A stretch of DNA of 28,288 nt, taken from positions 1 to 28,288 of IMG/VR virus record IMGVR_UViG_3300000117_000067. The stretch is one strand, 5' to 3'. The notes beneath the pieces are model-generated. The model saw only the letters and a program-made list of their open reading frames with translations, ran no database searches and was not told where the DNA came from. Position 1 is the first letter of the stretch, and each line of letters starts with the position of its first letter. Shown in pieces: positions 1,282 to 15,969 of this stretch. The position numbers and the translations under genes were made by a program. This DNA comes from a virus.

Positions 1282-1803
1282 CTATTCTTCCTCCTGAGAA
1301 GAAGTATTTACCAAAACAACGGGTGATTCCCCGTTCCAAAGGTAAGGTGCGTTATCTGTATTTTTGGTAAAATCTGAATATGCTTTATTCATCATTTGTC
1401 TACGGCTTGCAGTATTTGCATCAGCGAACTCAACTGCATCAGCATAATTTCCGCCACCGGATTTACCGTGTCTCATTTCTAGTGTGCGTATTGATTCGTT
1501 TTCATTGAAGAGTGTAATCATTGCAGAGTGATAAGCGGATAAAACCGCATCTCTTGCAATAAGTACAGCATCGGGCATGGTTGAACCTCTACCCGACCTA
1601 AATGGCTTGTCTGCGATATCTGCGAAACATGTTCTGATAGCCCCATAGAGAGCATCTCTAGACTCAGGTTTCTTATCAGCAGCAGCGATTAATTGCGGTA
1701 CTGCAATTAACTCAATATTCTGTTGCCAATCAGGATGGCTTTCAAACCATGCCTCAATTAGTGTTTTCTTACTTTCCCATTGTTCATTTGTCATATCTGT
1801 CAT
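1282..1803 (-). CDS. Hypothetical protein, 173 aa; paralogue of the 2056-2529 gene
   Basis: The chosen ATG at 1803 has a GAGGAAT Shine-Dalgarno 7-8 bases upstream; an in-frame GTG at 1851 and an ATG at 1794 are alternatives. The protein is mostly helical and shares collinear landmarks with the divergent neighbour: an N-terminal WE..KK, an (A)VQLIA-like stretch, S-K-P-E, an Arg/Gly-rich RSGRG, then HGKS followed by ADYA/YADA, and the same last six residues SSQEEE. The two genes are therefore products of a duplication and inversion. No database family is recognised. It has its own promoter (P2) and terminator, so it is a single-gene unit, possibly expressed early. Confidence 0.75.
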   Translation of the reverse strand: MTDMTNEQWESKKTLIEAWFESHPDWQQNIELIAVPQLIAAADKKPESRDALYGAIRTCFADIADKPFRSGRGSTMPDAVLIARDAVLSAYHSAMITLFNENESIRTLEMRHGKSGGGNYADAVEFADANTASRRQMMNKAYSDFTKNTDNAPYLWNGESPVVLVNTSSQEEE

Positions 1804-1873
1804 AATAATTCCTCTTTTTATCTCCTTAGTTAAGTATCTATTCAACCCCACTTAACATAATATACAGTGAATA

Positions 1874-1955: not shown

Positions 1956-1997
1956 ACCATATGGTTCTACTTTGATAGAACCCTTTAATAAGCCCTA
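1956..1997 (+). promoter_or_regulatory. Composite promoter/operator P3 with ACCATATGGT palindrome
   Basis: Rightward copy of the P1/P2 element: ACCATATGGT (1956-1965), 4 bases, CTTTGA (1970-1975), 8 bases, TTTAATAAGCCCTA (1984-1997). It points at the 157 aa gene. Its palindrome is only 40 bases from that of P2, so one regulator could control both divergent genes. Confidence 0.6.
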
Positions 1998-2055
1998 CAT
2001 CGGCTATTATTATGCTCACAAAGGCAATCAGTTAATGATAATAAAGGTGTTAAAA

Positions 2056-2529
2056 ATGGAAACATGGGAAGATACAAAAAAGAAAGTAGAAACAATGATA
2101 GCGGCAGATGATAGAGGTTCACTCGATGAAGGTCTAAAGGTTGTAGCCGTACAATTAATTGCAACAGGAGATAGTAAACCTGAGATGCAAGAACAAATGA
2201 CTAAGACTCTAAAAGAGGCTCTTAGAGGATGTCATGGATATCCTTGGAGAAGAGGTGGTGGAGGTATTCTTTCTGCTGCTGCTCTAAGTACAGTGGATGC
2301 AATAGTAGCAGATGTTGAAACAGCATTTGCAAATGCATTCGATTCTTGTATCGGTGTTCAAGCATTACTATTGCCTCACGGTAAGAGTAAGAATACTCAT
2401 TTTGAAAATGGTGCAGATTATGCAAGCACACTCACAAAGACAATTCGTAAAAACGCAACTACGCTTTACAAAGCAGGTTGGGATGGTTCTCTAGATGGTC
2501 TAGGGATTTCTTCACAGGAGGAAGAATAA
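2056..2529 (+). CDS. Hypothetical protein, 157 aa; paralogue of the 1282-1803 gene
   Basis: ATG 2056 is chosen because AAAGGTG lies just upstream and because METWEDTKKK then aligns with the start of the leftward paralogue. An in-frame TTG at 1972 sits inside the promoter element and is unlikely. Landmarks shared with the paralogue are WE..KK, VAVQLIA, DSKPE, a GYPWRRGGGG turn, LPHGKSKN, NGADYAS and the terminal SSQEEE. The protein is predicted to be alpha-helical, with a Gly-rich loop near residue 68 and no membrane segment. Function unknown. A strong terminator directly follows, so this is a one-gene transcript. Confidence 0.75.
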   Translation: METWEDTKKKVETMIAADDRGSLDEGLKVVAVQLIATGDSKPEMQEQMTKTLKEALRGCHGYPWRRGGGGILSAAALSTVDAIVADVETAFANAFDSCIGVQALLLPHGKSKNTHFENGADYASTLTKTIRKNATTLYKAGWDGSLDGLGISSQEEE

Positions 2530-8733: not shown

Positions 8734-8943
8734 ATGAAATTAACAATAGCAAATGAAACCGGACATACGGTAATGGAAAATATGACAGTAGATGATATGC
8801 TTGACCAAATACAAGACCATCCAACACATTGGATATATCTTGATGGGATTCAAGTACCTAAAGAAACGATTACAGCAACAGACTGGGACTCAGTAGCAGA
8901 TGTACTGCTAATGCCCGGAATGCAGGGTGGAGGCAACCAATAA
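8734..8943 (+). CDS. Ubiquitin-like beta-grasp protein with GGG tail
   Basis: 69 aa starting at ATG 8734 after AAGGAAAGTGAAA. The secondary-structure order fits a MoaD/ThiS/ubiquitin-like beta-grasp: beta hairpin (KLTIANET, HTVMENMTV), helix (DDMLDQIQDH), strand ending in DGIQV (like the N/D-G-E-x-V of MoaD/ThiS), and last strand ADVLLMPGMQGGGNQ. In this superfamily the C-terminal Gly-Gly is activated by an E1. Here GNQ or NQ follows the Gly pair, so trimming by a JAMM protease would be needed. An E1 (13945) and a JAMM protein (15412) lie downstream in the same direction. The fold is inferred from a short sequence. Confidence 0.55.
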   Translation: MKLTIANETGHTVMENMTVDDMLDQIQDHPTHWIYLDGIQVPKETITATDWDSVADVLLMPGMQGGGNQ

Positions 8944-8974
8944 ATACCATTTAGGTATTTATGTCTCTACAATT

Positions 8975-9020
8975 GAGGTGGCAGCATTCCCTCACAATTT
9001 GCTGCCCCTCATACCTTTTT
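8975..9020 (+). terminator. GC-rich hairpin with T-run between the Ubl gene and the next gene
   Basis: GAGG (8975-8978), one bulged T, then GGCAGCA (8980-8986) pair with TGCTGCC (9000-9006) and CCTC (9007-9010) around a 13-base loop. TTTTT follows at 9016-9020. It is unusually GC-rich for this genome and lies in the only sizeable gap of the operon before 27194. It may attenuate transcription or protect an mRNA end. Confidence 0.55.
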
Positions 9021-9034
9021 AGGAGAGGAATCCT

Positions 9035-9415
9035 ATGTTATGCGATTATGCGAATATATTACCGACTGGAATATTACCAGTCTTTTTGAAATCACAAGGT
9101 TGGCTTTACCGTGATAGTAAAAAATATGAAGATTATACTTTAATGAAGCCCGACTTTTACCCTGTTGGATATGTTCTAGCAGTGAGTATGAAAGCAGTTA
9201 TTATTTGTGATGGGGAAACCTTGATTGAATATAACAATAAACAATATAAAGATGTAGATGATTTAGTTTCAGAATATGGAATTGATGTAATTTCTACCTT
9301 CCCATCTTGGAACTTTTTGGTCGAGAGAGAATGGGTCGTAAAGAAGAATGGTGAATATGTTCATTCATTCTCTTCATTTGACCAAATAGTAGAAAGAAAA
9401 AAATTAAGGTGTTAA
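9035..9415 (+). CDS. Hypothetical protein, 126 aa
   Basis: ATG 9035 has GGAGAGGAA upstream. Alpha/beta protein with hydrophobic strands (GYVLAVSMKAVIICDG) and an aromatic-rich C-terminal half (FPSWNFLVEREWVV). No signal peptide or catalytic motif recognised. It lies between the ubiquitin-like gene and the reductase, whose Shine-Dalgarno overlaps its end. Confidence 0.6.
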   Translation: MLCDYANILPTGILPVFLKSQGWLYRDSKKYEDYTLMKPDFYPVGYVLAVSMKAVIICDGETLIEYNNKQYKDVDDLVSEYGIDVISTFPSWNFLVEREWVVKKNGEYVHSFSSFDQIVERKKLRC

Positions 9416-9417
9416 AG

Positions 9418-11301
9418 ATGAAAGAAATGGAACTACAAAATAAAGTGCTATCAGAGTTTAATGTATTTACGAAGTATGCTAAATATAAAGCAGATGAAAA
9501 CAGAAGAGAAACTTGGGATGAAATTTGTGAAAGAAATAAACAAATGCATCTAAAAAAATATGTTAATAGAGGTAATCCTCAATTGATTGAAGAAATAGTA
9601 AATGTATATGAGAACTTTGTTAAGCCTAGAAAGGTAGTTCCATCAATGAGGTCTTTTCAGTTTGCAGGTAAACCCGTTGAACTCTCACCTAATAGATTAT
9701 ACAATTGTGCGTATATGCCAATAGATTCTTTAGAGTGTTTTTCTGAGTCTATGTTTTTGTTATTAGGTGGAACAGGCGTAGGGTATTCCGTACAACGTCA
9801 TCATGTAGAACAACTACCAACTATCAGAAAACCCAATCCTAATAAGTTTAGAAGAATATTAATTAATGATTCTATTGAAGGTTGGGCTGATGCAATTAAA
9901 GTTCTTTTTGAATCATACTTTGGTATGAGAACATCTTCTCCTAATTTTGATTATGATGATATTAGACCTAAAGGTGCGCCACTAAAAACTAGTGGTGGAA
10001 AAGCACCCGGTCCAGCACCACTAAAAATAGCATTAGTTAAAATTGAAACAATGTTATTACAAAAAGAAGAAGGTACACAACTAACTCCTTTAGAGTGTCA
10101 TGATATATTATGTCATATTGCTCATGCAGTTTTATCGGGTGGTATTAGACGAGCAGCATTAATATCTTTATTTAGTGCTGATGATAATGAAATGATTAAT
10201 TGTAAAGCAGGTAAGTGGTATGAACAGAATCCACAAAGAGGTAGAGCAAATAACTCAGCATTCTTACTTAGACATAGAATAGAAAAAGGATTCTTTGAGG
10301 ATTTATGGGAAAGAATTAGATTATCTAACTCAGGAGAACCGGGAATATATTTCTCCCATGATAAAGATTGGGGAACAAATCCTTGCTGTGAGATTGCTTT
10401 ACGCCCTTATCAGTTCTGTAACTTGTCAGAGTGTAATGTTTCTGATGTTTTATCTCAAGAAGATTTAGAAGAGAGAGTAAAAGCAGCCGCTTTCTTAGGA
10501 ACTTTACAAGCAGGTTATACAGATTTCCACTATTTACGGGAAGTTTGGCAGAAAACTACTGAAAAAGATGCACTTTTAGGTGTATCCATGACGGGAATAG
10601 GTAGTAATAAAGTAACTTTATTAGATATTGAACAAGCAGCAATCGTTGCAAAGAATGAAAATGAAAGAGTTGCTGAATTACTTGGGATAAATAAAGCAGC
10701 AAGAGTTACTTGTGTTAAACCATCAGGAACGGCTAGTTGTGTATTAGGTACTTCATCAGGTATCCATCCTTGGTATGCTCCATTCTATAATAGAAGAGTT
10801 AGAGTAAACAAAGTAGAACCTGTATATCAATATCTATTAGATAGAGTACCTGATTTAATAGAAGATGATTACTTCAGTGCTACTGAAGCAGTATTCTCTA
10901 TACCACAAAAAGCACCTAAAGGTGATGTAATAACTAGACATGAGTCTGCAATTAATATGTTAGAACGTGTAAAGCGTTTTTCTGTTGGTTGGGTTCAACG
11001 TGGTCATAGGGATGGATTGAATACTCATAATGTATCTGCAACTGTTCAAATTCGTGAAGATGAATGGGAAGATGTAGGTGCATGGATGTGGTTAAATAGA
11101 CATTATTACAATGGTCTAGCAGTTTTACCATATGATAATGGTTCTTATAAACAAGCACCATTTGAAGAAATAACAGAAGAAGAATATAATAGTATGAGGT
11201 CTAAACTATATGATTTAGACTTTACACAAGTAATAGAATTAGATGACAATACCGATTTACAAGGAGAAATTGCTTGTGCAGGTGGAGTTTGTGAAATATG
11301 A
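9418..11301 (+). CDS. nrdJ: Adenosylcobalamin-dependent (class II, monomeric) ribonucleoside-triphosphate reductase
   Basis: ATG 9418 follows TTAAGGTG; the GTG three codons earlier is less likely. Length 627 aa. Catalytic landmarks of the Lactobacillus-type monomeric RTPR are present: C97 (LYNCAY) and C334 (QFCNLSE) as the redox pair, radical Cys in NPCCEIAL (N321, C323, E325), the KPSGTASC loop (434-441), and the terminal C620-x4-C625 pair that regenerates the active site. It reduces nucleoside triphosphates to deoxynucleotides using vitamin B12 coenzyme and needs no second subunit. No ATP-cone is visible. It would supply dNTPs for viral replication. It overlaps the next gene in an ATGA junction. 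Confidence 0.92.
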   Translation: MKEMELQNKVLSEFNVFTKYAKYKADENRRETWDEICERNKQMHLKKYVNRGNPQLIEEIVNVYENFVKPRKVVPSMRSFQFAGKPVELSPNRLYNCAYMPIDSLECFSESMFLLLGGTGVGYSVQRHHVEQLPTIRKPNPNKFRRILINDSIEGWADAIKVLFESYFGMRTSSPNFDYDDIRPKGAPLKTSGGKAPGPAPLKIALVKIETMLLQKEEGTQLTPLECHDILCHIAHAVLSGGIRRAALISLFSADDNEMINCKAGKWYEQNPQRGRANNSAFLLRHRIEKGFFEDLWERIRLSNSGEPGIYFSHDKDWGTNPCCEIALRPYQFCNLSECNVSDVLSQEDLEERVKAAAFLGTLQAGYTDFHYLREVWQKTTEKDALLGVSMTGIGSNKVTLLDIEQAAIVAKNENERVAELLGINKAARVTCVKPSGTASCVLGTSSGIHPWYAPFYNRRVRVNKVEPVYQYLLDRVPDLIEDDYFSATEAVFSIPQKAPKGDVITRHESAINMLERVKRFSVGWVQRGHRDGLNTHNVSATVQIREDEWEDVGAWMWLNRHYYNGLAVLPYDNGSYKQAPFEEITEEEYNSMRSKLYDLDFTQVIELDDNTDLQGEIACAGGVCEI

Positions 11302-11585
11302 GATATAGGTCAAAACTGAATAGAGAAGAGTTTCTAGAAATAGAACAAGAAATATATGATATGTTTTCTAATGATACAGTTAAAAACAATGTGCATAAGA
11401 GATTCAATCAGTTGAGGGATGGTAATATGACTCCCCTAACATTTATGCATAACTTATTGCGTACAATGAATACTATCAACAATATAACGAGGAGTGAAGC
11501 CCTCACAAAAATAGTGGAAACGCACGAATATAAAAAATATAAAGAGAGGAATATAAATGAAGATAATTTACGAGAACATACCTAA
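11298..11585 (+). CDS. Small basic helical protein, 95 aa
   Basis: ATG-TGA coupled to the reductase. Charged and helical throughout (REEFLEIEQEIYDMF, VHKRFNQLRDG, FMHNLLRTMNTI), with a Lys/Arg-rich C-terminal region. No family recognised. It overlaps the next gene by 29 bases. Confidence 0.6.
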   Translation: MRYRSKLNREEFLEIEQEIYDMFSNDTVKNNVHKRFNQLRDGNMTPLTFMHNLLRTMNTINNITRSEALTKIVETHEYKKYKERNINEDNLREHT

Positions 11586-11814
11586 GAGCAAAATAATAAA
11601 AGCATATAGAAATAAACTGAAAGAATCAGGACTTTATACCAAACGGTATAATACTTCTGATTGTGAACCTGCTTTGGTACGGCCTAATGTTATGGGTTTT
11701 ACAATGAGTTGGGTTGACTTTCGTAGATTACCTAGACAAATGGTTGCAATGCATTGTTTTATGCAAGGTCTAACTATTGATGGGGTTCAGACTATTATGG
11801 AGGAAGAAGAGTGA
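11557..11814 (+). CDS. Small hypothetical protein, 85 aa
   Basis: ATG 11557 has GAGAGGAATATAA upstream. Basic N-terminal helix (KSKIIKAYRNKLKES), then a conserved-looking core (CEPALVRPNVMGFTMSWVDFRRL) and an acidic MEEEE end that doubles as the ribosome site of the next gene. Could be a small DNA-binding protein; no family assigned. Confidence 0.55.
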   Translation: MKIIYENIPKSKIIKAYRNKLKESGLYTKRYNTSDCEPALVRPNVMGFTMSWVDFRRLPRQMVAMHCFMQGLTIDGVQTIMEEEE

Positions 11815-13034
11815 AAGTTAAGTTATATGTTCCGAGAGCAGATGATAGTCAGATATTTGATACAACAAGTTTTCTATATCGCACTACTGATTTGAAACGT
11901 AATTATCGTAGTAAACTAAATAGATTTGGTGAATATAAAGTAGTAAGTAATCTTGACTTAGATAAAAAAAATAGTTTAGACCCTATTTATGCAGGAATTA
12001 GTAAAGCACTAAATAAATTTCTATTTATGTCAACCAATGATAATGTTACAACTATTATTACCTTTAGGTATAGGGATGGGGACTCAACTATTGTTTTTCA
12101 AAAGAATAAACCTCACTTTTTCTTAAATGGTGAGAAAGATAGTAAAGGTATTATTATAGATAATTTAAGTAAGATTTTTTATCGTTCTTGTTTTGAGAAG
12201 AGTAGTACTAAGATGGATAGATATATTCGTAGGTTGTTATTATTTCCACCGAATGTAATGTATTCAGTAGAAAATAGAACACCTTATTCATTTTATAGTA
12301 ATGATGGGTCAATGACGAAACAGAATGTTAGGATTAAAACAAAGATAATTTCTGATAAAGAATGTGCATTAGAAATTTCTGATGGTGTTTGGGCTAGTAT
12401 TACAATAAAAGATTTAAATTCATTTATTAATTACCATAGGCATGGTCATAAACGCTCTGAAAAATGGGGAGTTTCACCGGAAAACCTATGGAAAAAATTG
12501 TTAAGTTATGAGCCTAGTAAGTCTCAAGTAAAATTGATGTATGCCTTTCTAGCGCAAAATAGAACTCAATCATTAGTTGAAAAGAGAGCCGAAGAACTAT
12601 TAAAAGAACTAGAAACTAAGTTCCCTAGTAAAATTAAAGTCTTTAGGTTGGGTAAAATACATAAGCAAACTATTATGTTAGTTAGAGGTCAGAGATGTGA
12701 TTGGGTATTAAAAGAAAACCCTTCTTCTTCTGATACTCAAAAAGTTAATACTCATAGATTTGTAGAAAATAATGATGGTGAAGCAAGTTCCAAAGGGGCT
12801 TTAATACATCCTCATAATTCTACTGTACTAGGTACTTTATCAGGAGTATGTATAGATAATATTCATAAAAATTCTAGTCTAGGCGACCAATTTGCTGCAA
12901 GAGCAATGTTTCTTATGAATGATGTTATGTCAAGTTCACAAATCAATACAATGAGACTACCCGAAAAGGAACATAGGATACCTGATGTATATTGGGATAA
13001 CTTAGATTTAATTAGTAAGAGGGGAAAACTGTGA
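11811..13034 (+). CDS. 407 aa protein with possible E2-like (UBC-fold) C-terminal domain
   Basis: A GTG start at 11811 overlaps the preceding TGA, with GGAGGAAGAA upstream. Residues 1-210 are an uncharacterised alpha/beta domain. Residues 260-390 are the interesting part: probable strands (KIKVFRLG, TIMLVRGQ, CDWVLKENP), then IHPHNS (H333-P334-H335), SGVCID (C347) and a long helix (GDQFAARAMFLMND). This order matches E2 ubiquitin-conjugating enzymes and phage E2-like domains, which have HPN/HPH before the catalytic G-x-CL. The E1-like gene is 0.9 kb downstream. The assignment rests on motif order only; it could be an unrelated domain. Confidence 0.45.
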   Translation: MKVKLYVPRADDSQIFDTTSFLYRTTDLKRNYRSKLNRFGEYKVVSNLDLDKKNSLDPIYAGISKALNKFLFMSTNDNVTTIITFRYRDGDSTIVFQKNKPHFFLNGEKDSKGIIIDNLSKIFYRSCFEKSSTKMDRYIRRLLLFPPNVMYSVENRTPYSFYSNDGSMTKQNVRIKTKIISDKECALEISDGVWASITIKDLNSFINYHRHGHKRSEKWGVSPENLWKKLLSYEPSKSQVKLMYAFLAQNRTQSLVEKRAEELLKELETKFPSKIKVFRLGKIHKQTIMLVRGQRCDWVLKENPSSSDTQKVNTHRFVENNDGEASSKGALIHPHNSTVLGTLSGVCIDNIHKNSSLGDQFAARAMFLMNDVMSSSQINTMRLPEKEHRIPDVYWDNLDLISKRGKL

Positions 13035-13942
13035 AATGTATAGAATGTGAATCAGAAAGAAATATGTTTGATGAAAGATTGGGTGAGCAAGTTTGTTTAG
13101 ATTGTGGACTTGTCTTGGTGAAAAATATATTTGAAGATACTATCAAAAATATAGATTATAATATATCAAATATAGATTACAAAGGCGCACCTAACAAGTC
13201 TTGGGATTTAGGTTCAACTATTCATAAAGGAGATGTGAATAAGTTTGGTGTTATGGGTAGGAAATTATTCTTTACTCAAAGACATAACAACCCATTGAAT
13301 GAATCTTATTTGAGGATGTTAAAATTATCTAATATGAATCTATCATATTATAATGTAGCACCTGTACTAAAGAGTAGAGTAAGTAAATATTATAATTTGT
13401 TAAATAAAAAACAGGCATTAAGAGCAGTGCCTATTGATAATAGAGCAGCAAGTTTAACTTATTATATATTGAAAGAAGCAGGTATTGCAGTAACAGTACA
13501 GAAGCATTCTAATGTAACTAAGATATCTAGAGGTGAAATATCAAAATATGCTAGAGTGATAGCAACTCATTTAGGCAAGCCTTGGGTCTTTTCTCAAATG
13601 AACATTGAAGGTTTGATTCAAGAAGTTGGGTCAAAATTATATTTACCTAACCCTCAATATATTGGGGATGTAAGTAAATTATCAGAACACGTTTATCAAA
13701 AACTAGATGCTCATGGTGTGCAATTTACAATAGCAACTTTGTCTGCATGTTTTTATCTAGTGTCAGTATTTAGACGGGAAAATTATACACAACAAGAGGT
13801 TGCTAAATTAGTCGGTACTACCGAAGTATCACTAAGAAAGAACATGAAAAAGATTTTACAATTATATAATGTAGATAAAAATAAATTAAATTATATGGTA
13901 TTAAATGATTTTATTAATGGAATAAAAAAAGGAGAGAAATAA
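13031..13942 (+). CDS. tfb: Transcription factor B (TFB/TFIIB homologue)
   Basis: 303 aa, typical TFB length. A GTG start overlaps the previous TGA. The N-terminal zinc ribbon has CIEC (C3, C6) and CLDC (C22, C25) with GLVL after it, the standard TFIIB ribbon ending. A linker with GAPNKSWDLGSTI (52-64) resembles the B-finger/reader. Two cyclin-like helical repeats follow (about 100-200 and 205-295), the second containing TIATLSACFYLVS and a helix-turn-helix-like QEVAKLVGTTEVSLRKNMKKI. TFB recruits RNA polymerase to TBP-bound promoters in archaea, so a viral copy could redirect host transcription. It lies between the E2-like and E1-like genes. Confidence 0.85.
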   Translation: MKCIECESERNMFDERLGEQVCLDCGLVLVKNIFEDTIKNIDYNISNIDYKGAPNKSWDLGSTIHKGDVNKFGVMGRKLFFTQRHNNPLNESYLRMLKLSNMNLSYYNVAPVLKSRVSKYYNLLNKKQALRAVPIDNRAASLTYYILKEAGIAVTVQKHSNVTKISRGEISKYARVIATHLGKPWVFSQMNIEGLIQEVGSKLYLPNPQYIGDVSKLSEHVYQKLDAHGVQFTIATLSACFYLVSVFRRENYTQQEVAKLVGTTEVSLRKNMKKILQLYNVDKNKLNYMVLNDFINGIKKGEK

Positions 13943-13944
13943 GA

Positions 13945-14520
13945 ATGAAAAGAAAGATAATGATAATAGGTGCAGGTGGTATAGGTAGTATGTTAATACA
14001 TAATTTAGAAAGGTTAGGTATTTATGACATAACTGTTTTTGATGATGATAAGGTAGAAAAAAAGAATTTAACTTATCAACATTATAATGAAAGCCACTTA
14101 GGAGAAAATAAAGCAGAAGCAATTAGTAGTCAGTTTAATGGTATTAAAGCCGAACCGTATTTAGTTTTAGTACCAAAACAGTTGAAAGGTTATGACCTAG
14201 TTATTTGTTGTGCAGATAATTTAGATGTAAGACGCTTGCTTTATAGGCAAGGTACAGGTGATGATGCTAACGTGAAGTGGTTAGATTTACGCGCACAAGG
14301 CAGAAATGCTACGCTAATATCATATATGCTTAATCCTAATTTAGTGGATACTGTATTAACAGGGGAAGAAGGTTCTTTTTCCTGTCAAGCACAATCTTGG
14401 GATGGCTCTGCTAAAGGTGTTAATATGATGAATAATGTAATCGCTTCTATTGCTGCTCAATGGATTCAGAAATGGTTCAATAAGCAGGAAGTAACTGCAA
14501 GTATGGTGTTTAATATATGA
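13945..14520 (+). CDS. ThiF/E1-like adenylating enzyme
   Basis: ATG 13945 has AAGGAGAG upstream. 191 aa, a minimal E1 Rossmann domain. Nucleotide site IIGAGGIGS (7-15); acidic loop FDDDKVEKKNL (32-42) then YQHYNESHLGENKAEA, equivalent to the E1 D-x-D-x-V..NL.RQ...D.G..K signature, though the usual Arg of RQ is Tyr44. CCADNLDVRR (88-97) is the CxD/D-N-x-x-R segment. C147 (GSFSCQ) is a possible thioester cysteine. Such enzymes adenylate the C-terminal Gly of a beta-grasp protein. Coupled by ATGA to the next gene. The activity is well supported by motifs; the partner is inferred from neighbours. Confidence 0.85.
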   Translation: MKRKIMIIGAGGIGSMLIHNLERLGIYDITVFDDDKVEKKNLTYQHYNESHLGENKAEAISSQFNGIKAEPYLVLVPKQLKGYDLVICCADNLDVRRLLYRQGTGDDANVKWLDLRAQGRNATLISYMLNPNLVDTVLTGEEGSFSCQAQSWDGSAKGVNMMNNVIASIAAQWIQKWFNKQEVTASMVFNI

Positions 14521-14759
14521 CCGATAAAGTTGATGACGATTTAGAATTATCAGATGAGGAGATAGGTGAAATAATAAGTATTATTTCTAAGGATGGGATT
14601 TATCTTAGGTCTGAAATAGTTAGAGTTTGTTGTCATGTTTGTGGTGAAGAGTTTATAGGAACAAAAAGACACGCAGGAGGTTTTCTAAGTGGACATCAAG
14701 TATATCATGAGTCTATTATTAAAGAGAGTATTAGAGCATCCCAACAAGGAGGGGTCTGA
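14517..14759 (+). CDS. C2H2 zinc-finger protein, 80 aa
   Basis: ATGA overlap with the E1-like gene. N-terminal acidic helix (LSDEEIGEIISIIS), then CHVCGEEFIG...FLSGHQVYH giving C39, C42, H60, H64, a classical C2H2 finger with a slightly long middle. It may bind DNA or act as an adaptor. It ends with AAGGAGGGG, the ribosome site of the next gene. Confidence 0.65.
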   Translation: MTDKVDDDLELSDEEIGEIISIISKDGIYLRSEIVRVCCHVCGEEFIGTKRHAGGFLSGHQVYHESIIKESIRASQQGGV

Positions 14760-14760
14760 T

Positions 14761-15057
14761 ATAGGATTAGAGGATTGGAAGCCCTCTAGCGATAGTAAAG
14801 CATCAGAAATTGATGTAGTTAATGTTGTGTCAAATTGGACTAATGAATATCCAACAGAGTTTGGTATGACTAGTTTCCTAAGAGACAAGATATTTGCTGT
14901 ATCTAATACAGGTAAGAGTGTGTTAGTACATATGATGAATGGTCAAACATTTACAATAACTATTAAAAATAGCCCTATTCCTTTTTTTAAGGATGATAGG
15001 CTTACTAATGAAATTGTAATCAAAGAATTAAAAGGTGAGAAAAATGAAAAAAAATAA
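14761..15057 (+). CDS. Hypothetical protein, about 98 aa, apparent ATA start
   Basis: The frame is open from 14689, but upstream ATG/GTG codons lie inside the previous gene and lack ribosome sites. The only good Shine-Dalgarno (AAGGAGGGG) points to an ATA at 14761, one base after the preceding TGA. From there the protein begins GLEDWKPSSDSKASEID and continues with beta-rich sequence (KSVLVHMMNGQTFTITI). No domain recognised. If ATA is not used, ATG 14707 is the alternative. Confidence 0.55.
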   Translation: MGLEDWKPSSDSKASEIDVVNVVSNWTNEYPTEFGMTSFLRDKIFAVSNTGKSVLVHMMNGQTFTITIKNSPIPFFKDDRLTNEIVIKELKGEKNEKK

Positions 15058-15415
15058 AGTTAAGAAAGGAAAATGGGATGAGCATGAAGTAAAGTTACTT
15101 TGTGTTTGTTTGGATGAAGGTTTGGATGTTGAAGAAACAGTATTACGATTTGATGGTACTAGGACTTCTGCACAAATTAAAAGTAAAATTTCATCCAAAG
15201 CAATAAGAGAGCGTCATGTTGATTTAGATATAGAAGAGATGCATGAGGACTTGGTTAAAGAAGAAGAAATGGAAGAACATCTAGAAAAGGTAAAAGATGT
15301 TCTCGATGAGAAAATAGCAGAAGTTAAGAAAACTAACAATAAAATGGTGTTTAGATTAGTTCTAATTACAGCAGTAATTGTTGGAGTATTAATACAAACA
15401 GGGGTAATAGAATGA
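15044..15415 (+). CDS. Myb/SANT-like protein with C-terminal membrane helix
   Basis: ATG 15044 has AAAGGTGAG upstream. 123 aa. Basic start (KKNKVKKGKWDEHE), then a Myb/SANT-like helix-turn-helix (WDEHEVKLLCVCLDEGLDVEE, SAQIKSKIS) over residues 10-50. Residues 60-97 are acidic and heptad-like. Residues 101-119 form one hydrophobic transmembrane segment (MVFRLVLITAVIVGVLIQTG). A DNA-binding-like head on a membrane anchor could tether DNA or a complex to the membrane. The Myb-like call is by pattern only. ATGA-coupled to the JAMM gene. Confidence 0.55.
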   Translation: MKKNKVKKGKWDEHEVKLLCVCLDEGLDVEETVLRFDGTRTSAQIKSKISSKAIRERHVDLDIEEMHEDLVKEEEMEEHLEKVKDVLDEKIAEVKKTNNKMVFRLVLITAVIVGVLIQTGVIE

Positions 15416-15969
15416 AGATAAAGAATAGTGAAGAAGAATATGATGAGAATGATAGATTATATGCGAATATAATGGAAAAAGTGGTTAAAGATAACGAATG
15501 GAAAAAACCTATTAGAGAATTATGGGAAGTATGTTCTGATAGTATGGAATGGGTGTATCCTGATTTTGGTACAGAAGCATTCCTGAGTCAAATATACAAA
15601 CAATCTATTGAGCATTTTGATATTCCTAGAGAAGTTCAAGTGTTAGTAGATGCTAATAATAATCTATTCATGAGTGTTGGGACACCGGGGTTTGTATCTT
15701 TTGCAAATCAAGATGATGAGTTATATGGTAGTGAAGAACCAATGAAATTACCTATTAAATGTTGGATTCATACTCATCCTAATATGTCAGCATATTTCAG
15801 TGGAACTGATTGGAATACTGTTGATACTTGGAAAGGTAATTTAGATAGTGCAATTGTTTTAGGTCAAGGTGAAGTGTGGGCTTATGATTGTAAAACTGAA
15901 ATAGGTAAGCACGTATCATTTATTAAGACCAATAGTGGTAGGTATTCTGTAACGGAAGGTGAGGAGTGA
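15412..15969 (+). CDS. JAMM/MPN+ (JAB) metalloprotease
   Basis: 185 aa, coupled by ATGA to the gene before it. The zinc-binding JAMM signature H-x-H-x7-S-x2-D is complete: H120, H122, S130, D133 (IHTHPNMSAYFSGTDW). It follows a beta-rich core (VQVLVDANNNLFMSVG). These enzymes cleave isopeptide or peptide bonds after the Gly-Gly of ubiquitin-like proteins, trimming precursors or removing modifiers. The N-terminal 60 residues are an acidic helical extension. With the ubiquitin-like and E1-like genes in the same operon, it is the likely processing/deconjugating enzyme. A phage-tail-type role is another known use of JAB domains, but no tail genes are nearby. Confidence 0.88.
   Translation: MKIKNSEEEYDENDRLYANIMEKVVKDNEWKKPIRELWEVCSDSMEWVYPDFGTEAFLSQIYKQSIEHFDIPREVQVLVDANNNLFMSVGTPGFVSFANQDDELYGSEEPMKLPIKCWIHTHPNMSAYFSGTDWNTVDTWKGNLDSAIVLGQGEVWAYDCKTEIGKHVSFIKTNSGRYSVTEGEE

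Follow-up and report, generated by a model that had tools for sequence, protein, structure and literature searches.

The virus record IMGVR_UViG_3300000117_000067 has 40,563 bases, and bases 1-28,288 of it were analysed here as one stretch of DNA (the window, 28,288 bases). Within about 7 kb of its + strand the window encodes a ubiquitin-like protein (Ubl), a protein resembling ubiquitin-conjugating enzymes (E2-like), a ThiF-type protein resembling ubiquitin-activating enzymes (E1) and a JAMM metalloprotease, which together probably form a virus-encoded ubiquitin-like conjugation and deconjugation cascade. A preliminary description of the sequence had placed these four genes on one strand and found them mixed with genes for a transcription factor B (TFB) and a B12 reductase. 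All four open reading frames (ORFs) were recovered where it had located them on the + strand, and the other two genes, a TFB and a class II ribonucleotide reductase, were also found, both recognised through matches under the curated NCBIfam cut-offs. The four genes are as follows.

8734..8943, + strand: Ubl of 69 amino acids with a predicted beta-grasp fold and the tail ...MQGGGNQ (from the predicted fold and Gly-Gly conservation).
11811..13034, + strand: E2-like protein of 407 amino acids, ...HPHNSTVLGTLSGVC-IDN, with the candidate catalytic Cys347 (from the model and residue conservation).
13945..14520, + strand: E1-like adenylyltransferase of predicted ThiF fold, 191 amino acids, with the candidate transthiolation Cys147 in GSFSCQ (from Pfam ThiF).
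15412..15969, + strand: JAMM/MPN metalloprotease of 185 amino acids with HTHP-x6-S-x2-D (from the full zinc-site motif and Pfam Prok-JAB).

Recurrence and order of the four genes

Scanning IMG/VR with ThiF yielded 32 distinct loci, and with JAMM 62. Profile scans of the same database gave 222 relatives of the E2-like protein and 291 of the ThiF protein, from which the best 80 of each were taken. Altogether 252 loci were examined, many of them overlapping and two of them from metagenome-assembled genomes (MAGs). Homologues of the Ubl were found in 196 of these loci, of the E2-like protein in 237, of ThiF in 243 and of JAMM in 244. All four occurred together in 191 of the 252, representing 117 distinct four-protein sets. 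Every one of the 191 complete loci has the four genes on one strand in the order Ubl, E2-like, E1, JAMM, with a span of 3.8 to 8.5 kb. The gap between the Ubl and E2 genes goes down to 256 bases in some relatives, and the ThiF and JAMM genes may overlap; in the window the four genes are therefore spread over 7 kb in large part through intervening passengers, the reductase among them. In the incomplete loci the expected position of the missing gene was mostly at or past the end of the locus, as judged by position rather than by a count. When the whole records behind three incomplete loci were searched, the Ubl was present in two (L251 and L090) and was not found in the third (L249), whose E2 gene sits 1.9 kb from the start of the record.

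Replication factor C (RFC) was used as an independent marker. A scan with it gave at least 600 stretches, 80 records were kept, and all 24 of these that have at least 30 kb were searched whole. This set leans to near relatives, because the RFC profile was built from loci bearing the cassette. ThiF, the E2-like protein and the Ubl were each found in 21 of the 24 records and JAMM in 23, with all four in 20. Three of the 24 are cut at an end: one starts at JAMM, one both starts and ends inside the cluster, and one starts inside the E2 gene. An RFC-bearing relative of 65.8 kb (record G015, locus L328) has none of the four genes and is a natural case of a virus of this kind without the set.

The E2-like and Ubl families have so far been found only in marine viral contigs and in two MAGs with viral-looking contigs. 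One peptide pattern of the E2-like profile, searched in 84,980 cellular genomes, gave two loci only, both in MAGs named as marine bacteria. Each of these MAGs has a second, diverged E2 copy. In the MAG Altibacter EAC109 the diverged second copy of the cluster (L343) comprises Ubl, E2, ThiF and JAMM, and in Maricaulis IN14 (L344) it comprises E2, ThiF and JAMM. Both are probably mis-binned viral contigs. A tblastn search with the E1 and E2-like proteins gave no match in the GenBank phage collection, a weak negative for a collection without the named magroviruses.

Predicted folds and conserved residues

Residues were counted only in E2-like homologues of at least 350 amino acids, E1 homologues of at least 170 and JAMM homologues of at least 140, with identical sequences counted once; four of the alignments (A1, A2, A4 and A5) were made without some near-duplicate or truncated rows. 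The AlphaFold2 models of the Ubl had predicted local distance difference test (pLDDT) scores of 88.9, 82.6, 82.4, 81.9 and 63.0. The best model runs strand-strand-helix-strand-strand-short helix-strand and ends in a disordered tail, which is the beta-grasp arrangement. Its 50 listed neighbours in the VIA structure comparison were largely MoaD, ThiS, ubiquitin and ubiquitin-like domains, with a best Z of 5.9 (63 residues aligned, root-mean-square deviation (rmsd) 3.4), and Foldseek placed ubiquitin on top among PDB chains (E 0.004). Gly-Gly stands near the C-terminus in all 103 distinct Ubl homologues and is followed by zero to three variable residues (none in 11, one in 40, two in 50 and three in 2), which make up 34 different tails including the empty one. 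With an invariant Gly-Gly and a drifting tail, the protein looks like the precursor of a processed modifier.

The E1-like protein matches Pfam ThiF at 77.3 bits over a cut-off of 28.1 (E 1.3e-21). Its best NCBIfam model is PRTRC_ThiF (4.8e-16), tied with ThiF (4.9e-16), both under the cut-off, and its PDB relatives include Cap2, MoeB, UBA5 and ubiquitin E1. All 133 distinct homologues keep Cys147, the first Gly of the glycine motif, two D, N, Q, K and a further D. From the alignment we take Cys147 to be the cysteine that would carry the modifier.

The JAMM protein matches Pfam Prok-JAB at E 0.0012, under the cut-off, and 35 of 56 family members match it at E <= 0.01. Its zinc site reads E74...H120-x-H122-P-x6-S130-x2-D133, and all five residues are kept in 138 of 138 homologues. 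The nearest PDB relatives of its profile are AMSH (best E 8.4e-6) and Rpn11-like deubiquitinases (2.4e-4).

The AlphaFold2 model of the E2-like protein had a pLDDT of 85.2 and a predicted template modelling score of 0.61. Its predicted UBC-like domain covers about residues 251-393. Within residues 252-377 a helix is followed by strands, Cys347 at the end of a strand, and then helices; a cysteine after the strands and before a helix is, we assume, the E2 topology. By entry title, 44 of the 50 listed VIA matches of this model were E2-type (E2s, a few variants and CBASS Cap2), with Z of 4.1-5.1 over alignments of 97 to 116 residues, all inside the stretch 249-400 of the model. The remaining six were CapZ, one kinetochore chain and four Mediator chains; RWD-like domains occur in subunits of both Mediator and the kinetochore. 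Altogether 202 chains had a VIA Z of at least 2. All 139 homologues have Cys347, D359 and Q360, and Cys347 is followed by [IV]-[DN] in the family. In BFVD, three viral proteins match over most of the model at E 2.6e-34 or better, and other matches there are weak. Residues 1-235 of the protein (11811-12515) form a large N-terminal region that belongs to no recognised family.

For both the Ubl and the E2-like protein of the window, nothing relevant was found in Pfam, PHROGs, NCBIfam or PADLOC. The Ubl profile gave three irrelevant matches among PDB sequences (best E 0.013), and 6 of 52 Ubl family members, the window's own not among them, reach Pfam ThiS at E <= 0.1 (best E 0.00084). The E2-like and Ubl families are barely or not recognised by sequence libraries, save for these weak ThiS matches of the Ubl.

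These results bear out much of the preliminary description. It had read ORF 8734 as a beta-grasp protein with a GGG tail, with which the predicted fold and the conserved Gly-Gly agree, and it had named E1 and JAMM by their motifs, whose key residues proved invariant. Its E2-like order HPH...SGVC in ORF 11811 stood in part: Cys347 is invariant and a UBC-like domain is predicted, at low Z, while HPH occurs in 2 of 69 distinct rows, the window's own being one, and was dropped as an equivalent of the E2 'HPN'. The gene-neighbourhood check it proposed gave co-occurrence in related viruses, in the 191 loci and in 20 of the 24 RFC-selected records. It had named three results as contrary to its proposal, a Ubl model without beta-grasp, an E2-like model without a UBC fold and a lack of co-occurrence; none of them was obtained.

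Comparison with known systems

We compared the viral set with the PRTRC system of NCBIfam, which we take to be the same as the type 6d operons of Iyer et al. 2006. In type 6d, according to passages of PMC1779556, Ubl, JAB, E1 and E2 are separate proteins and the E2 is without the classical His. Like PRTRC, the viral set is composed of a stand-alone Ubl, an E2-like protein, a JAB protease and a ThiF-type E1, and like the type 6d E2 in those passages the viral E2 lacks the classical His. Ten PRTRC loci (four genomes and six plasmids) gave nine E2 and ThiF, eight Ubl and five JAB sequences. In hhalign comparisons, for which E-values are uncalibrated, the viral E1 aligned with PRTRC ThiF at a probability of 99.4 over 170 columns, with Cys147 at a cysteine in the SC motif of PRTRC ThiF, and the viral JAMM aligned with protein A at a probability of 86 over 71 columns. 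The viral Ubl reached 0.23, which is control level, against a shallow protein C alignment of 8 rows, and the viral E2 domain reached 0.50 against protein B, where unrelated pairs gave up to 1.48. The alignment of E2 with protein B covered 14 columns at the Cys motif, and a G shortly before the Cys tends to occur in both E2s. Since the PRTRC alignments had just 4 to 9 rows, this negative is weak when taken alone.

Among the curated models, the viral E1 scored 58.8 bits with PRTRC ThiF TIGR03736, not reaching the cut-off of 144.75, and the viral JAMM scored 15.2 against 101.8 bits with protein A TIGR03735, which 6 of 56 family members match at E <= 0.1. The protein B E2 model PF14460 had no match in the 40.6-kb record at E <= 10 and none among 65 E2-like members at E <= 0.1. 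The protein C and Prok_Ub models had no match to the window's Ubl at E <= 1, nor did the Pfam model match any of 52 members at E <= 0.1. No match to PRTRC ParB, E or F was seen in the viral families compared, which were those of Ubl, E2, JAMM, ThiF, the zinc-finger protein and RFC. The gene orders also differ, PRTRC running ParB, E, C, F, B, A, ThiF and the viral set Ubl, E2, TFB, E1, JAMM, and so do the carriers, a plasmid or chromosome in PRTRC and a virus here. With E1 and JAMM similar and Ubl and E2 not above controls, membership in the PRTRC system was rejected.

The archaeal ubiquitin operon of Candidatus Caldiarchaeum subterraneum, in the passages of PMC5654768 that describe it, likewise has a separate Ubl precursor, E1, E2 and a JAMM protease (Rpn11) that exposes the di-glycine. 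It differs by a small RING finger protein (srfp) and a nine-residue pro-peptide, and the viral E1 has just 191 amino acids. No Pfam match to RING was found among the viral proteins scanned, and a C2H2-type finger is present.

Type II CBASS (cyclic oligonucleotide-based antiphage signalling) and Bil operons bring E1, E2 and JAB chemistry into a prokaryotic virus-host setting, as the set does here. Cap2 of CBASS is a fusion of E1 and E2. In contrast, the virus encodes E1 and E2 in two ORFs with the TFB gene between them, both here and in the 191 loci, and the PADLOC E1-E2 models match the viral ThiF protein only and never ORF 11811. Homology of Cap2 to both E1 and E2 is described in passages of PMC10097602.

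The SAMP/UbaA system of archaea, like the viral set, has a beta-grasp modifier with Gly-Gly, a ThiF-type E1 and a JAMM deconjugase; to our knowledge sampylation has no E2. The viral E1 matches the UbaA model at E 6.8e-10, but with 38.7 bits against a cut-off of 450. Single parts have been described from other elements. Borg elements have many JAMM proteases, and one Borg has SAMP, according to passages of PMC12660748. In the RaFAH study a gene of the MoeB/ThiF family ranks with the auxiliary genes most prevalent in archaeal viral genomes, and ubiquitination is mentioned; its passages on this gene name no Ubl, E2 or JAMM partners (PMC8276007). ThiF in archaeal viruses is thus already in print. 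The words ubiquitin, ThiF and JAB do not occur in the main text of a survey of magroviruses (PMC10160649), of a paper on marine phages (PMC5628999) or of one on archaeal Caudoviricetes (PMC8651126). The literature searched yielded no description of the whole set from an archaeal virus, which does not establish its absence from print. The best reading is that the viral cascade resembles PRTRC (type 6d) and the archaeal ubiquitin operons but is a member of none of the systems tested.

Bacterial mobile elements, defence operons and a small number of archaea are known to have complete sets of E1, E2, Ubl and deconjugase. The set described here is common among a large group of marine viruses resembling those of archaea. 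If the reading is right, a virus would bring its own ubiquitin-like signalling into an archaeal cell, with an E2 family that the public models used do not recognise and a Ubl that they barely do. This would be relevant to the spread and diversification of E1-E2-JAMM systems outside eukaryotes, and four small proteins would suffice to test the whole idea in the tube.

The proposed cascade and its alternatives

We propose the following course of reactions. The JAMM protease would cut the zero to three residues past Gly-Gly off the Ubl precursor. The ThiF-type E1 would adenylate the freed Gly-Gly, possibly with a thioester on Cys147, and would hand the Ubl to Cys347 of the E2-like protein, which would put it on lysines of viral or host proteins. 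The JAMM protease could then take the Ubl off again. Such a system may serve to control proteins during infection, and the transcription apparatus is, more weakly, a first candidate for its target. The computed observations are the predicted folds, the invariant active-site residues, the invariant Gly-Gly with its non-conserved tail and the constant gene order; the chemistry, the thioester relay, the reversibility and the targets we infer. A parallel is offered by Caldiarchaeum, in which the Rpn11 JAMM matures pro-ubiquitin that is then used by E1 and E2; the abstract speaks of a sequential cascade, and deconjugation appears as a section heading (PMC5654768).

Several results weigh against a conjugation cascade. 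No E3 ligase was identified. Foldseek found no PDB match at E <= 0.001 for the Ubl or the E2-like model, and 9 of 52 Ubl members weakly match the unrelated Pfam family Inhibitor_I24 (best 0.013), more than match ThiS. The E1 lacks the Arg of NxxRQ, which we take to be the rule for such enzymes, and has Tyr in 129, Asn in 3 and Thr in 1 of 133 homologues. The best E2 match of the E2-like protein has a Z of only 5.1 (rmsd 3.8, 105 residues aligned), and VIA warns that such a Z can mean no more than a common arrangement. In the PDB search by Foldseek, QueF-like chains had probabilities of up to 0.33 and E2 rows 0.18-0.25. None of 65 members matches a Pfam E2 family at E <= 0.1, the E2-like profile had no match among PDB sequences at E <= 10, HPH was lost as a counterpart of HPN, and the score with PRTRC protein B lies within the range of unrelated pairs.

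From these points one may argue that the 407-residue protein is no E2, having instead an RWD-like or other alpha+beta fold in which Cys347 serves another enzyme, so that the virus would have Ubl, E1 and JAMM only. The low Z, the want of a sequence link to E2s and the QueF-like Foldseek probabilities above the E2 rows favour this, but Cys347 and D359-Q360 are invariant (139/139), E2-type chains make up 44 of the 50 VIA matches listed, a list without any QueF-like chain, and the protein keeps the constant company of Ubl, E1 and JAMM; we think it unlikely. Another alternative is a sulfur-carrier pathway. There, ThiF would thiocarboxylate the Ubl, which would donate sulfur for the synthesis of a cofactor, a tRNA or cysteine, JAMM would release the product, as Mec+ does from CysO, and the 407-residue protein would be the acceptor enzyme. 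In its favour, the E1 is closely related to ThiF and MoeB, ThiS is the sole beta-grasp Pfam match of the Ubl family, and the best fold neighbours of the Ubl include MoaD and ThiS. However, the PDB relatives of the JAMM are deubiquitinases, and a UBC-like protein with an invariant Cys suits conjugation better. Moreover, neither rhodanese nor PALP (cysteine synthase type) was found at E <= 0.001 in 30 records of 82-103 kb (0/30 for each), whereas the control genomes had them in 13 of 14 and 14 of 14, although host enzymes could substitute. We regard a sulfur carrier as improbable.

Another explanation concerns the purpose of the set. As a decoy or a means of counter-defence, the kit would mimic Ubl-based antiviral systems of the host or of bacteria and would modify or strip defence proteins. 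Ubl conjugation does serve defence in the case of CBASS Cap2 and Cap3, according to passages of PMC10097602, and for the JAMM proteases of Borgs a role in countering host targeting is suggested by the authors in part of PMC12660748. On the other hand, mere stripping of tags needs no complete set of E1, E2 and Ubl, and what recurs is a fixed module that encloses the TFB gene. We hold counter-defence to be conceivable though somewhat doubtful; as a claim on purpose it is compatible with the cascade. That the four genes are unrelated and adjoin merely through the collinearity of magrovirus-like genomes is very improbable. Gene order in these genomes is broadly conserved, and the replication genes downstream are near-constant (ligase in 29 of 32 loci), but seven other families of the cluster occur in only 19 to 138 of the 191 loci, counts that are lower bounds as short or fast-changing families can be missed. 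The RFC-selected set also has the four together or, in one record, all absent, and the four make biochemical sense as a set. A conjugation and deconjugation cascade remains the reading that we prefer.

TFB, neighbouring genes and the virus

Three further genes lie between those of the cascade.

9409..11301, + strand: adenosylcobalamin-dependent ribonucleotide reductase (from NCBIfam RTPR, E 1.7e-74, under the cut-off).
13031..13942, + strand: viral TFB, a TFIIB homologue (from Pfam Zn_Ribbon_TF, E 6.2e-6, and NCBIfam TFIIB, E 1.6e-13, both under the cut-off).
14517..14759, + strand: small C2H2-type zinc-finger protein of 80 amino acids (from conserved C and H residues).

The TFB gene lies between the E2 and E1 genes in 191 of 191 loci and is therefore as constant as the four genes themselves. 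Its position leads us to name transcription as the first place to seek targets, and is in itself no evidence of modification. One could go further and propose that the E2-like and Ubl proteins are new families of enzymes and modifiers and form part of a five-gene module with the TFB, which would tag the transcription apparatus (its own TFB, the host TFB or RNA polymerase) and so switch the host cell or the virus's own early and late programs by reversible tagging. We put this forward very tentatively and consider it distinctly unlikely in this full form. Genes outside the cluster are also near-constant, the DNA ligase gene in 29 of the first 32 loci and genes 16439, 16830 and 20269 in 28 of the 32, which weakens the argument from the constancy of the TFB gene and is a further point against the reading as a whole.

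The reductase gene lies between the Ubl and E2 genes in 138 of the 191 loci. Unlike the Ubl set it is sometimes missing, and it is a passenger and no constant part of the cluster. Besides the seven less constant families of the interval, one family just upstream is found near the cluster in at least 111 loci. The zinc-finger gene, in the window between E1 and JAMM, occurs within 3 kb of the cluster in at least 101 of the 191 loci and further upstream in some relatives. Its C39, C42, H60 and H64 (C-x2-C, H-x3-H) are invariant in 27 sequences, and we regard it as an accessory protein, possibly an adaptor or a substrate. It was also considered as a second Gly-Gly modifier, an idea that was dropped, as a GGx tail is present in 18 of the 27 sequences and absent from 9.

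The window has a GC content of 29-37% per kilobase and no tRNA gene, with a long run of + strand genes across it, and its replication and transcription genes are of archaeal type. DNA ligase, the RFC small subunit and a family B DNA polymerase (PolB) were recognised by Pfam; ORF 24697 had no Pfam match, and sliding clamp is a guess only. In the phage collection the best-placed PolB relatives are those of haloviruses, at about 25% identity. The complete record of one halovirus, HCTV-1, was searched and had no homologue of any of the four genes of the cluster. The published gene content of magroviruses (profiles of Aoguangviridae and Apasviridae) describes tailed viruses tied to the marine Poseidoniales. 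Like magrovirus-like archaeal tailed viruses, the record has the set of PolB, RFC small subunit, DNA ligase and TFB. Gene content (TFB, RFC and PolB), rather than a known host, thus fits a placement of the virus as magrovirus-like and putatively archaeal.

Near the start of the window, ORFs 1282-1851 (- strand) and 1972-2529 (+ strand) encode proteins that resemble divergently placed paralogues, with HGKS and SSQEEE stretches in both. Each of them has one match among the first 32 loci, each time a protein of 174 amino acids. An inverted repeat with arms at 1663-1695 and 2152-2184 lies within this pair, as expected from paralogues in this arrangement.

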